Below are positions 57,981 through 63,377 of a DNA stretch of 64,000 bases, one piece after another (position 1 is the stretch's first letter; every line of letters starts with the position of its first letter). The position numbers and the translations under genes were made by a program. The notes beneath the pieces are model-generated. The model was not told where the DNA came from. It ran no database searches and saw only the letters and a program-made list of their open reading frames with translations. The stretch is from an uncultured Treponema sp. (GTDB lineage Bacteria > Spirochaetota > Spirochaetia > Treponematales > Treponemataceae), in contig NZ_CAMHSK010000004.1 of NCBI RefSeq assembly GCF_946187725.1, positions 1-64,000 of the forward strand, given 5' to 3'.

Positions 57981-58105
57981 AGACGGAGCAAGCAGATTAA
58001 AATCAGAAAATGTTAAAATTTTCCTTGCAAATTCCTTAAACTGGAGTCAAAATAATTTTGACTTTTGCTTAAGCGAAAGAAATTTTCAGTTTAAAGGAGT
58101 TGCCT

Positions 58106-60334
58106 ATGAAACAACTATACAAACGACGGGGGGGGGTAATTTCTTCAGTCCTTATTTTATTACTTTCCCTCTACCTTCCCCTGTCCTTATTCAGTTGTAA
58201 AAGTGATGCTGACAATGATTCACCAACCTATTACACCATCACCATTTCTTCGACCATTGAAAACGGCTCTGTAGAAGCAAGCAAAAAAAGTGCTTCATCC
58301 GGAGAGTCGATAAAACTTACTGCAAAGCCCGCAACCGGCTATGAGCTTGATTCCTATTCAGTAACAGATTCTAAAGGTTTGGCAATCACTGTAACAAATG
58401 GCGAATTTAAAATGCCCGAAAGCAATGTAACGGTGAGTGCGACATTCAAGGAGACTACAGAAACCGTAAACCAGAAAGCGGCAGCTGCGGTTATCGCAAA
58501 AATCAACGCCATCGACACTGTCGCCTACACCGAAGCAAGCAAGAGCCTCATCGATACTGCCCGCAATGCCTACGACGCACTCACCAGTGACCAAAAGGTA
58601 CTGGTAACCAACTACAGCACGCTCACAGCGGCAGAGACGACTTACAGCACGCTCAAAACCGAAGCTGACACAGCGACCGCAAACCAGGCCGCAGCTGCCG
58701 ATGTCATCGCAAAAATCAACGCCATCGGCAACGTGGCCTACACTGACGCCTGCAAAACACTGATCGACGATGCCCGCACCGCTTACGATGTATTGAATAC
58801 CGCACAGAAAGCGCTTGTTCCGGCAGACACGCTTACCGTGCTGACCACTGCTGAAACACAATACAGCACGCTCAAAACCGAAGCCGAAACAGCGACCGCA
58901 AACCAGGCCGCAGCTGCCGATGTCATCGCAAAAATCAACGCCATCGGCAGGGTCGCCTACACACCTGCCTGCAAAGCACTGATTGACGACGCCCGCAATG
59001 CCTACGACGCCCTCACCAGCGACCAAAAGGTACTGGTAACCAACTACAGCACACTCACCACTGCCGAAAGCAGCTACAGTGAGCTTAAAACCGCTGCCGA
59101 CAACCAGGCCGCAGCTGCCGATGTCATCGCAAAAATCAACGCCATCGGCAGGGTCGCCTACACTGACGCCTGCAAAGCACTGATTTACGACGCCCGCACC
59201 GCTTACAACGCACTGAACGCCGCACAGAAAGCACTTGTTCCGGCAGACACGCTTACCGTGCTGACCACTGCAGAAACACAATACAGCACGCTCAAAACCG
59301 AAGCTGACACAGCGACTGCAAACCAGGCCGCAGCTGCCGATGTCATCGCAAAAATCAACGCCATCGGCACAGTCGCCTACACTGACGCTTGCAAAACGCT
59401 CATTGAAGCCGCCCGCAATGCTTACAACGCACTGAACGCCGCACAGAAAGCACTTGTTCCGGCAGACACGCTTACCGTGCTGACCACTGCTGAAACGCGA
59501 TACAGCACGCTCAAAACCGAAGCCGAAACAGCGGCTGCAAACCAGAACGCAGCAAACACTGTAATCGCAAAAATCACTGCAATCGGCAGGGTCGCCTACA
59601 CTGACGCCTGCAAAACACTGATCGACGACGCCCGCAATGCTTACGACGCACTGACTGCCGCGCAGAAGGTACTTGTGACCAATTACGGCACATTGACAGA
59701 AGCGGAATCAACCTATGAAAGCCTGATTACCTACACCGTAACCCTTACCGGCGGTGCGAATGCCACAGTAAGCGGCGGCGCAACGACCCAAAGCGACCTA
59801 AACGGCGCCATGACCACCGTTACCTACACAGCAAGCAACGGCTACTATTTTGTAGACTTTACCGCTACTACCACTAACGGCATAACCCTGACGCGCACCA
59901 GTAGCAGCGTCGTGACCGTTTCCGGCACACCAACAACCGACACAAGCATTACCGTTCCCGATGCAGCTCAAATCGTGCCAGTAACGGGCATTACCCTGAA
60001 CAAGGCCAGCACCACCATATCTGCCGGTTCTACCGAGACCCTAAGCGTAAGCGCCTATGAGCCAGGAAATGCCACATTCCAGACCGTAACCTGGTCCAGC
60101 GACAACACTGCCGTTGCCACCGTCAACGCCACGACGGGCGAGGTGACCGCCGTAGCCGCAGGAGCGAACGGCACCAACGCTAGTGCAACCATCACGGCAA
60201 CCGCCACTGACGGAAGCGGCGTGACTGCCACCTGCACCGTTACGGTAACGCCCGCTTCTGTAGATGTAGAGAACAGGGGATTTACCGCAAGTTCTTGGGA
60301 AGACGAGCCCGGTGACAATCTCATCACCGAGTAG
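58106..60334 (+). CDS. Lipoprotein with six helical repeats and a C-terminal Ig-like domain; poly-G tract after start
   Basis: A 742-residue lipoprotein (lipobox S-L-F-S-C, Cys31). In order: an InlB-type divergent repeat (about 42-115; Y-T-I-T-I-S-S-T-I-E-N-G-S-V), six tandem repeats of about 70 residues (about 122-540; V-I-A-K-I-N-A-I-G ... A-R-N-A-Y-D-A-L, probably three-helix bundles), a second InlB-like segment (V-T-L-T-G-G-A-N-A-T-V-S-G-G) and a bacterial Ig-like Big_2 domain (I-T-L-N-K-A-S-T-T-I-S-A-G, about 630-720). Probable surface adhesin. Codons 8-11 lie in a run of nine G; a change of one G leads to a stop at 58200, so expression may be phase-variable. The ATG has an AAAGGAG site. 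The repeats are clearly more GC-rich than rsmG. Confidence 0.82.
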   Translation: MKQLYKRRGGVISSVLILLLSLYLPLSLFSCKSDADNDSPTYYTITISSTIENGSVEASKKSASSGESIKLTAKPATGYELDSYSVTDSKGLAITVTNGEFKMPESNVTVSATFKETTETVNQKAAAAVIAKINAIDTVAYTEASKSLIDTARNAYDALTSDQKVLVTNYSTLTAAETTYSTLKTEADTATANQAAAADVIAKINAIGNVAYTDACKTLIDDARTAYDVLNTAQKALVPADTLTVLTTAETQYSTLKTEAETATANQAAAADVIAKINAIGRVAYTPACKALIDDARNAYDALTSDQKVLVTNYSTLTTAESSYSELKTAADNQAAAADVIAKINAIGRVAYTDACKALIYDARTAYNALNAAQKALVPADTLTVLTTAETQYSTLKTEADTATANQAAAADVIAKINAIGTVAYTDACKTLIEAARNAYNALNAAQKALVPADTLTVLTTAETRYSTLKTEAETAAANQNAANTVIAKITAIGRVAYTDACKTLIDDARNAYDALTAAQKVLVTNYGTLTEAESTYESLITYTVTLTGGANATVSGGATTQSDLNGAMTTVTYTASNGYYFVDFTATTTNGITLTRTSSSVVTVSGTPTTDTSITVPDAAQIVPVTGITLNKASTTISAGSTETLSVSAYEPGNATFQTVTWSSDNTAVATVNATTGEVTAVAAGANGTNASATITATATDGSGVTATCTVTVTPASVDVENRGFTASSWEDEPGDNLITE
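58128..58136 (+). repeat. Poly-G tract (nine G) at codons 8-11
   Basis: Nine consecutive G directly behind the start codon of the lipoprotein gene. Loss of one G shifts into a frame that ends at 58198-58200 before the lipobox cysteine is reached. Confidence 0.9.
58468..59730 (+). repeat. Six tandem coding repeats of about 200-220 bp
   Basis: Units begin at about 58468, 58682, 58901, 59102, 59321 and 59539, each opening with AACCAG. Repeats 2-5 share long, nearly identical stretches (for example GCAGCTGCCGATGTCATCGC), indicating recent amplification or homogenisation. Unit 3 is about 18 bases (six codons) shorter. Confidence 0.85.
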
Positions 60335-60367
60335 GCAGTTTTACAGAAACGTAATAAGGAGCATACT

Positions 60368-61381
60368 ATGAAACATAGAATACCATATCTTTTTGCAGCA
60401 GCAGTCTTTTCGGCTCTGTTTTTGGGCTGCCAGTATAACGATGTGGAAAGCGCACAAGGCTCAGCCAGCTTTCCAGAGGACGGCGTAATCCGCTTTACCA
60501 CCAACCTCGTTGAGCCCACACAGGCGCGCGCCAGCATCACCGGTAGCGACCTGAACCAGAACGGCCAGCAGTTCCAGGTGAAGATTGTCAACCCGACCTC
60601 TGCCACCTACAGCTACTTCAATACCGTACAGTACGACGGCTGCGAGTGGACACCCGTGAACCGTATGCTCTGGCAGAACGACCAGCAGAGCATCACCGTG
60701 ACCGCTGCCTACAAGCAGGGTAAGACATTCAGCGACTATGACTTTATCTGCGGCGCCAACCTCACCGTGGCTGCCGACCAGAGCACCGCGGCCAAGCTGA
60801 AGCAGCAGGACCTGCTGACCATGCCCACAAAGACCATCGCCAACCCCTCTATCGAGGAGACGCTGATGCAGAACGGCAAGCTGGTGGTGAACTTCTACCA
60901 CGCCCTGTCCAAGCTGGACGTAACGCTGGATTTGTCAACCGAGTTTTTCGGTACCAGCGCCTCTGATGTAACAGATTTTACCATCAGCGGCACCAATGTC
61001 GGCTATAACTTCAATCCGATGGAGACTGCCAATGAGAACTACGGCACCGTGACCGCCACTGGCTCTACTTCTGCCGACATCCTGCCCTACCAGAGCGTCT
61101 TCAACGCTGCCACCGATGCCGACATGCACAGCACGGCCAAGTACGAGGCCATCGTTGTACCGCAGGAGATTGCCGCCGGGGCATTGACCGTATCGTTCAA
61201 AATTGGCACCCGCTCATTCTCATGGACAAACACTGAAAGCCTCACCTTCGAGCAGGGAAAATGCTACACCCTGCCCCTTACCGTGGGAAGCGACAGCTCA
61301 ACATCGCTTTCGCCATCTGCAGGATTAAATCTTTCATCAACTGACTGGCTTGCAATGCCCGGCTGCTATGTAGCTGAATAA
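60368..61381 (+). CDS. Fimbrillin-family lipoprotein (Bacteroidales type)
   Basis: A 337-residue lipoprotein (lipobox L-F-L-G-C, Cys21) resembling the fimbrillin/Mfa-like proteins of Bacteroidales, which are structural or tip subunits of type V pili. Family features: G-V-I-R-F-T-T-N-L after the tether, an A-R-A-S segment (possible Arg-gingipain-like processing site region), K-L-V-V-N-F-Y-H-A-L-S-K-L-D-V-T-L marking the boundary region (about 175-191), and E-A-I-V-V-P-Q-E-I-A-A-G before the last strands, ending in L-T-F-E-Q-G-K-C-Y. Codon use is GC-rich with many CTG, ACC and GAG codons, unlike the genes left of 58 kb, so transfer from Bacteroidales is likely. AAGGAG lies before the ATG. Whether pili are made in this organism is unknown. 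Confidence 0.8.
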   Translation: MKHRIPYLFAAAVFSALFLGCQYNDVESAQGSASFPEDGVIRFTTNLVEPTQARASITGSDLNQNGQQFQVKIVNPTSATYSYFNTVQYDGCEWTPVNRMLWQNDQQSITVTAAYKQGKTFSDYDFICGANLTVAADQSTAAKLKQQDLLTMPTKTIANPSIEETLMQNGKLVVNFYHALSKLDVTLDLSTEFFGTSASDVTDFTISGTNVGYNFNPMETANENYGTVTATGSTSADILPYQSVFNAATDADMHSTAKYEAIVVPQEIAAGALTVSFKIGTRSFSWTNTESLTFEQGKCYTLPLTVGSDSSTSLSPSAGLNLSSTDWLAMPGCYVAE

Positions 61382-61397
61382 GAACAGGAGGCAAACA

Positions 61398-63377
61398 ATG
61401 ATAAAAGCACGAAACTATCTTTTTTTGGCTGCAGCCGCGACTCTTCTGCTTGCCGGCTGCCAGAACGGCCTGGAAGAGGAAAGCAAAGGCTCTTCTAATG
61501 TCGTTACCATACGATGCAATGCCGGCTCTCCGTCAAGCAGCCGCATCGCGTCCTATTCTACCGATTACGACCAGATGCGTTACTTCGAAGCCGGCGATCA
61601 GGTGTGCGTCAGTACCGACGGTCAGGACCCCGTCGTATACCAGTGTACCGACGCCGACCAGCAGACCTGGACTGAGGCAGATTCCAGCAAGTTCCTCCTC
61701 TGGACCGACAGCGAGATGACCTTCAAGGCTTACTATCCTGCCACCGAGGGCACTTCGATGACCAGCTTCACCCTGCCCGCCGACCAGAGCACGACCGGGA
61801 AGATTGCCCTGGCCGACTACATGACCCGCCAGCAGACCGGCAGCAACGAATACGGCAACGACATCAACCTGAACCTGGAGCGCAAGATGGCCCGCGTCAT
61901 CGTACGCATCAGCGGCTTCGGCAGCCAGTACTTTGATGACCAGAAGACCGTCAGCAACGTCCGCATCTACAGCGAAGCCAGCGGCATTGCCGACGGCAAT
62001 CCCACGGGCAGCAGCACCGAAATCCAGCCATACGCACAGGGCAACGGTGGTCAAGGCTCTACCTACACCGCCCTCGTAGTGCCTGGCTATGGTGACAGCG
62101 GCGCCCGCTTCATCCAGCTGACCGACGGCGAAGGCAGCACCCTCCTCGTGAAGGGCATCCCCGAACTGGAGGCAGGCAACAGCTACACCTTCAACCTCGT
62201 AGTGGGTAAGAACAGGATTGAGGTGGCAAGCGTCACCGTCACCGACTGGACCACCGGCGAGACACTCGCAGGAGGACAGGCTGAGGAGCAGGGCGGTGCC
62301 TCGCTTAGCCTCACCAGCCCCGCTGTGGGTCAGGTAATCGGCAGCGACGGCAAGAACTACGCCTACGGCAGCCTGCCCACGGGCGTGACCAAGGTAGCAA
62401 TGATAGCCTACGTGTCTGGCTCCAACGGTCTCGCCATCGCCCTCGCCGACGAAGGCTCGTCGAATTGGGCGACGGCAAAATCCACATGCGAAGCAAAAAC
62501 ACCCGCCTTCACCAACGGCACATGGCACCTGCCCAGCCAGGCCGAGTGGAATCAGATGTTCAGTGCCAACGGCGGCAGCGAAGAAAGCTACTCCGGCCTG
62601 AATACGGCTATCACCACCGCCGGAGGAACAACCTTGCAGTCGGGCTTCTATTGGTCGTCGTCGGAGTACAGTCCAGGCGTCGGCGCCCACTTCGTGCACC
62701 TCGACGATGGCGATGTCGACTGGAGCAAAGCCAATGAGAGCCTCGGCCGCAATGTCCGTGCCTGCCTCGTATTCGAAGTGTCAGGCAGCGCGGCAACTCT
62801 CGTCACCGCCATCACGCTCAACAAGACCGCTACCACCATCTCGGCCGGCCAGACCGAGACGCTCAGCGTCAGCAGCGTGACACCCGATGACGCTACCGAC
62901 CAGACCGTCACCTGGAGCAGCGACAACGAGGCCGTCGCCACCGTCGATGCTGACGGCAAGGTGACCGCCGTAGCCTTAGGCACAGCCAACATCACTGCCA
63001 CGGCCAACGACGGCAGCGGCGTGACGGCCACCTGCGCCGTTACGGTAAGCAAAGTCGTCACCATCAACCAGAGCGATTGGGGAGATGGATATAGTCCTAG
63101 TTTCACAAAAGACGGTGTCACCGTCTCAGCAGGCATGATTGACTCTCGGCGCGGCAACCTCATGGACGACGGATCATTCTCTACCACCCTAGGCAACTTC
63201 ACAAAGATTGTTGTGACGACCACCCGTTGCTATGCTTCCGGCACGGGCTGGAGTGGTGGCGGCTCATCAATGACCTGGGAGGGCACTCCTGCCTCCACAG
63301 TCTCTTTCAGCGGCGAATTTTTGGGCAATGGCACGACCCAAACCACCATCGTCTGCACCATCGTGCCGAAGAATTGA
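61398..63377 (+). CDS. Fimbrillin-like lipoprotein with lectin-like and Ig-like domains
   Basis: A 659-residue lipoprotein (lipobox L-L-L-A-G-C, Cys21). Residues about 30-295 form a fimbrillin-like region (V-T-I-R-C-N-A, F-K-A-Y-Y-P, L-N-L-E-R-K-M-A-R-V-I-V-R-I, T-A-L-V-V-P-G, then Y-T-F-N-L-V-V-G-K). Residues about 310-458 form a lectin-like/FISUMP-type domain with TWHLPSQAEWNQMF, G-F-Y-W-S-S-S-E-Y and NVRACLVF. A Big_2 Ig-like domain (about 470-550; I-T-L-N-K-T-A-T-T-I-S-A-G) nearly copies the one in the 58106 gene, and a last domain (about 555-659) ends T-I-V-P-K-N. It could be a pilus tip or adhesin subunit. AGGAGG precedes the ATG; it follows the previous gene by 16 bases. Confidence 0.8.
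   Translation: MIKARNYLFLAAAATLLLAGCQNGLEEESKGSSNVVTIRCNAGSPSSSRIASYSTDYDQMRYFEAGDQVCVSTDGQDPVVYQCTDADQQTWTEADSSKFLLWTDSEMTFKAYYPATEGTSMTSFTLPADQSTTGKIALADYMTRQQTGSNEYGNDINLNLERKMARVIVRISGFGSQYFDDQKTVSNVRIYSEASGIADGNPTGSSTEIQPYAQGNGGQGSTYTALVVPGYGDSGARFIQLTDGEGSTLLVKGIPELEAGNSYTFNLVVGKNRIEVASVTVTDWTTGETLAGGQAEEQGGASLSLTSPAVGQVIGSDGKNYAYGSLPTGVTKVAMIAYVSGSNGLAIALADEGSSNWATAKSTCEAKTPAFTNGTWHLPSQAEWNQMFSANGGSEESYSGLNTAITTAGGTTLQSGFYWSSSEYSPGVGAHFVHLDDGDVDWSKANESLGRNVRACLVFEVSGSAATLVTAITLNKTATTISAGQTETLSVSSVTPDDATDQTVTWSSDNEAVATVDADGKVTAVALGTANITATANDGSGVTATCAVTVSKVVTINQSDWGDGYSPSFTKDGVTVSAGMIDSRRGNLMDDGSFSTTLGNFTKIVVTTTRCYASGTGWSGGGSSMTWEGTPASTVSFSGEFLGNGTTQTTIVCTIVPKN

Follow-up and report, generated by a model that had tools for sequence, protein, structure and literature searches.

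Does a run of nine Gs just behind a start codon serve a treponeme as a switch for a surface protein? The question is raised by a 64,000-nt stretch of DNA from an uncultured Treponema sp. (the whole stretch is called the window here), in which such a run lies near the start of a putative lipoprotein gene.

The G9 tract and the gene that carries it

The features of the locus are as follows.

58093..58099, + strand: Shine-Dalgarno (SD) sequence AAAGGAG (from the sequence; kept in seven aligned start modules)
58106..60334, + strand: putative lipoprotein gene of 742 codons with InlB-B repeat, tandem repeats and Big_2 (ORF, domain searches)
58128..58136, + strand: G9 tract in codons 8–11, the proposed switch (sequence, shuffles, frame table)
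58137..58138, + strand: TA adjoining the G9 tract, with which the stop codon (TAA) of the G8 and G11 frames opens
58196..58198, + strand: putative lipobox Cys codon, residue 31 (from the sequence and the familiar motif)
58198..58200, + strand: TAA at which the G7 and G10 frames end (frame table)
58643..59676, + strand: 219-bp tandem repeats, 4.8 copies, 80% matches (repeat finding)
60368..61381, + strand: fimbrillin-like lipoprotein gene (Mfa_like_1), 33 nt past the switch gene (ORF, domain match)
61398..63377, + strand: second fimbrillin-like gene, carrying Big_2 and weakly matching FISUMP, after another 16 nt (ORF, domain match)

The ORF begins with the ATG at 58106 and ends with the stop codon at 60332–60334. 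The tract extends from position 2 of codon 8 to position 1 of codon 11, in agreement with the codons 8–11 given by a sequence-only reading of this DNA. The encoded protein starts with MKQLYKRRGGVISSVLILLLSLYLPLSLFSC (MKQLYKRRGGV...LFSC) and may have the N-terminus of a lipoprotein, a basic MKQLYKRR... being followed by LSLFSC with Cys31; LFSC would correspond to a relaxed form of the familiar lipobox. G9 is the sole G or C run of at least 7 in the 64,000 nt, the other runs being 5–6 long. Dinucleotide shuffles give an expectation of 0.15 G8 runs per window, and the two placements seen were reached in 1 of 100 such shuffles. We reject a chance origin of the tract, as these shuffles and the G7 control runs described below speak against it.

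According to the frame table, G9 and G12 alleles are open through the tract. G8 and G11 alleles meet an immediate stop, the TAA at 58137–58139, and G7 and G10 alleles stop at the TAA at 58198–58200, which overlaps the lipobox Cys codon. The sequence-only reading had assigned the stop at 58200 to the loss of one base; this stop belongs to G10 or G7, and G8 ends at the tract, but the conclusion drawn from it, that frame loss truncates the protein ahead of lipidation, stands. A restart check on the OFF frames found no in-frame ATG, GTG or TTG between the tract and 58379, and hence an OFF allele should yield no lipoprotein. Two properties of a contingency locus are therefore present: a homopolymer of at least ∼8 near the 5′ end of an ORF (G9), and a one-unit change (to G8 or G10) that would abolish the product, with no restart.

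Domain searches identified an InlB-B repeat (E=8e-14) and Big_2 (E=2e-9) in the switch protein and Mfa_like_1 in both downstream genes (E=1e-27 and 2e-25); in the same search, Mfa_like_1 was absent from the switch gene itself. With the 219-bp units, these matches bear out the earlier description of a repeat-containing, surface-type protein whose gene heads a fimbrillin-like cluster. The domains say no more of the switch protein than that it is a surface repeat lipoprotein; a role as an adhesin is putative. A scan around the three-gene cluster gave no terminator-like site on the + strand and only two promoter-like matches on that strand, overlapping and weak, at 60340–60369.

A contig search for relatives of the whole protein returned six loci, from other phyla, that matched repeat or Ig-like parts. 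The tandem-repeat part (58643–59676) has ∼53% identity to Paludibacteraceae and Clostridia proteins from ruminant samples, and this cross-phylum identity suggests, at the level of sequence, that surface modules have been exchanged between phyla. Fimbrillin-like and FISUMP-type genes are typical of Bacteroidetes and Fibrobacter; here, Mfa_like_1 genes and a FISUMP-like ORF are found in a spirochaete (window 60368–63377 and L001:8511-9605).

Long G runs in the genome and N-terminal tracts across the genus

The genome of the window (G000; 3,265,972 bases, 80 contigs) has three FlaA matches, compared to 0/14 control genomes with any, which marks it as that of a spirochaete; together with the style of its lipoproteins, this points to Treponema. 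It contains 17 G or C runs of at least 7, namely ten G7, two G8, four G9 and one G11, so that runs of at least 9 exceed the number predicted from the fall between G7 and G8. All seven runs of at least G8 have G on the sense strand, and each lies in a lipoprotein, capsule-type/glycosyltransferase or response regulator gene or in a remnant. TA is found directly 3′ of 6/7 of these runs versus 1/10 of the G7 runs (Fisher p=0.004), which serve as an internal control and lack the pattern of the longer runs. Besides the window tract, the set comprises the following, given by contig and position.

C6:8360, G9: lipoprotein with InlB-B repeat; the lipobox frame differs from the ATG frame (OFF)
C45:17084, G8: lipoprotein with a stop at the tract (OFF); the other frame has no stop over at least 665 codons
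C34:29447, G9: directly behind the ATG of a WecA-like glycosyltransferase gene
C9:24256, G9: 3′ end of a LuxR-type response regulator gene
C14:41301, G11: 3′ end of a LuxR-type response regulator gene similar to that on C9
C32:26419, G8: remnant of the window's start module

The C9 and C14 regulators (L003:2990-3649 and L004:2940-3644, both − strand) each lie beside a divergent lipoprotein gene, the two lipoproteins forming one paralogous pair (MKKILALMAGVALLFTS...), and slippage in these regulators would alter the C-terminus. The WecA-like gene (L005:1944-3011, − strand) is located upstream of Wzc/Wza-like genes and has a second in-frame ATG behind its G9. Loss of mismatch repair was rejected as a cause of the runs, based on a MutS_I match in the genome (MutS only); with MutS present, slippage need not be fast.

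We searched 200 genomes of the genus for the pattern ATGAAAN{3,33}G8+T, which occurred in 47 genomes, at ∼100 places among the matches listed, compared to ∼14 matches (table count) for the reversed-pattern control. A scripted set of 97 loci (30 from the pattern search, 60 fetched further and 7 others) was then subjected to preset filters, which called for an SD, no stop ahead of the tract, a downstream ORF and a hydrophobic start, with duplicates removed. Fifty-nine distinct genes passed, the remainder having failed a filter or been duplicates. The frame is ON in 23/59 and OFF in 36/59; the former value is near the one third expected if tract length is free, and this counts for switching. A lipobox-like motif is present in 53/59 of the genes, and those that are OFF retain long open frames behind the tract.

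Tract length differs between relatives, across species, in a way that shifts the frame, and this is true both for this class of genes and for the start module considered below. In one pair of genes, 95.1% identical over 1622 bp, the tract is G9 and OFF in L105 and G8 and ON in L115; other pairs have G8/G9 at 89% identity (L110/L126), G8/G9 at 80% (L128/L129) and G10/G9 at 71% (L107/L132), in genomes that are mostly drafts, such that a one-base error may affect some of the lengths. The L105/L115 gene encodes a secreted GH5 cellulase in each of two species and is a candidate for a phase-variable enzyme acting on fibre. An acyltransferase-3 gene in a glycan-type cluster of a relative (L057:586-1727, + strand) changes frame at a G11.

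These comparisons bear on two alternatives. The tract could be fixed coding sequence that simply encodes the basic/Gly start of the signal peptide (RRGGV) and is invariant. The frame is intact in the assembly and RRGG is plausible as an n-region, but related tracts read RGG, WGG or TGG, in differing frames, and where 36/59 genes are out of frame it is the G run that has been kept and not the peptide; we consider this alternative unlikely. Slippage at the RNA level, or programmed frameshifting, would provide some protein at every tract length, with OFF being leaky and the tract setting the level. Long homopolymers can slip during transcription, and the long open frames kept in out-of-frame genes look as if they were still used. 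However, reversible switching at the DNA level would just as well leave OFF genes with an intact frame, and we hold an RNA-based mechanism to be quite improbable.

Flanking TA, promoter tracts and a shared start module

Among the rows listed in searches of exact runs, TA lies directly 3′ of 80/150 G9 runs versus 12/123 G7 runs (p=5e-15), several of these rows sharing a genome, with differing genome numbers per list, so that they are not fully independent. The TA flank helps in weighing a further alternative, that the tract lengths reflect errors of assembly or sequencing. Homopolymers of at least 8 invite errors, the assemblies are drafts, and near the L105 tract a masked stretch lies shortly behind the signal peptide; yet length errors can create neither the runs themselves nor their TA flank, sense-strand placement or gene class, making this explanation very improbable.

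Relatives also carry tracts in promoters, between the –35 and –10 elements, in the layout TTGACA-N-Gn-TANNNT. We searched for the pattern TTGACAN{5,12}G8+TA in the 200 genus genomes and in 145 family genomes, and found it in 88/200 and 63/145 (12/20 genera), respectively; two rows per table showed matches to the reversed pattern. Among the first 100 promoter matches listed, 59 have a spacer of 18 or 19. TA forms the start of the –10 element in these tracts, and the sixth base past the tract is T, as in that element, at 27/29 readable loci. By our criterion a downstream gene is present at 27/30 promoter loci, 19 of these with a lipobox-like start. Some species (e.g. G146, G078 and G199) have a dozen or more such sites and others zero, including G000, where the pattern had 0 matches. 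That the window tract is itself the spacer of an internal promoter of this class, common as the class is in the family, is barely credible, and we rejected this reading: TAATTT does follow the tract, but there is no TTGACA-like hexamer 14–21 nt ahead of the tract end, no + strand promoter-like match at the tract in the scan and no match to the promoter pattern in the same genome, and an SD and start codon lie upstream.

TA is seen behind long tracts in coding DNA too. In the N-terminal tracts, A follows T in 58/59 (the T being required by the search pattern), and TANNNT is present in only 23/59.

The start module of the window has the form SD-ATGAAACAACTATACAAA-Gn-TA. When the 200 genus genomes were searched for this head with up to 3 mismatches, 9 matched. 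The head is joined to a G8 or G9 tract in G000 and three other species (G028, G059 and G095), in both ON and OFF states. Counted against a switch are 3/9 genomes with apparently unrelated matches (L084, L087 and L091) and 2/9 in which a start resembling the head has no tract (L086 and L089). In an alignment of seven copies, the seventh of which came from G059 through the N-terminal tract search, the SD, start, CTATwCAAA, tract and TA are kept, and tract length and frame vary. The window and G028 proteins align well only over their first 26 residues (15/26 identical), the rest giving one weak segment (E=0.015) and chance matches, and the DNA match spans 46 bp. As the likeness is confined to the head, the head sits on different lipoproteins; module-bearing lipoproteins in other species are partly unrelated. 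Some tracts are flanked by CTATWCAA ... TTGTATAG, which has the form of an inverted repeat; we do not claim it as such, because in the lipoprotein heads similar peptide starts (QLYK, TIQK) can give the left arm.

It is conceivable, if on balance doubtful, that G8–G12 plus TA constitutes an element dedicated to switching and not just a run prone to slippage. Its start-codon form would travel between unrelated lipoproteins as a small, interchangeable head made up of SD, some seven codons and Gn-TA, and the family would place the element in promoter spacers, directly behind start codons and elsewhere in surface and regulator genes. The TA of coding copies would then serve tract formation, upkeep or recognition and not a –10 element. 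If anything here proves to be new in kind, it might be the TA flank and the head held in common.

Probable phase variation of the lipoprotein and its setting

From sequence comparison, the window G9 is very probably a translational phase-variation switch (contingency locus) with random on/off states. Replication slippage would add or remove Gs in the tract of this strain. With G9 or G12, the frame would be open through the signal peptide and lipobox and the repeat lipoprotein would be made (ON), while with G7, G8, G10 and G11 translation would end inside the first 31 codons, at the lipobox Cys or ahead of it (OFF). Production of this lipoprotein would thus vary randomly among cells, and if the loss of translation is polar, the fimbrillin-like proteins encoded downstream may vary too. 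On/off switching is supported because it is the DNA of the tract that is conserved and not its reading frame, because related genes differ by one G that flips the frame, and because the window tract belongs to a set. The sequence-only reading had proposed such switching, and comparison of frames, pairs and set lends it strong support, through related genes rather than this locus directly. The parallels it drew hold in part: those with Campylobacter and Neisseria fit translational switching, whereas the tracts of T. pallidum tprL and tp0126 are of the promoter type.

Promoter poly-G phase variation in T. pallidum has been described for tprL, tp0126 and tprE/G/J, and as presented there the system resembles that of the window in its spirochaete host, its poly-G tracts of 7–11 and its surface proteins (PMC7864442). 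The promoter class of the relatives has the layout of tp0126. Unlike the T. pallidum tracts, that of the window lies in codons 8–11 and would act on frame, not on promoter spacing, and its gene encodes a repeat lipoprotein where theirs encode Tpr porins (PMC7864442). The pilus switch of Bifidobacterium breve likewise involves an intragenic G-tract in a gut commensal, with replication slippage turning surface appendage clusters on and off; its pili are sortase-dependent and Gram-positive, and its length variation was measured in populations, whereas ours is inferred by comparison (PMC9187656). Neisseria HmbR/HpuAB share the poly-G within the ORF and frame switching, but are outer-membrane iron receptors whose phase status was typed in isolates (PMC3786947). 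Homopolymer tracts of Helicobacter canadensis, described as switching C-termini, lie near gene 3′ ends like those of the C9 and C14 response regulators; the genes are unrelated and the likeness is not to the window locus (PMC2823697). A homopolymer survey of cultured treponemes counted G/C runs of at least 7, with the fewest in the rumen species T. ruminis (9 G and 6 C runs), and partly ascribed T. pedis pseudogenes to tracts; in contrast to our analysis of G000, the survey text available to us does not name the switchable genes of gut species (PMC8049484).

The mechanism of poly-G switching is already known; the locus and the repertoire described here did not turn up in the open-licence literature searched. 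In that literature, to which our search was confined and which hence gives weak evidence of absence, we found no description of switches of this kind for treponemes of the gut or rumen; the reports on poly-G phase variation in this group deal mostly with the syphilis agent. The repertoire found here is concentrated on surface lipoproteins across the 200 genus species searched, with a secreted cellulase in two. If the switch is real, counts of tract length in metagenome reads would offer a direct, culture-free test, and the surface coat of these bacteria, perhaps along with fibre attachment and glycan digestion, would vary randomly from cell to cell.
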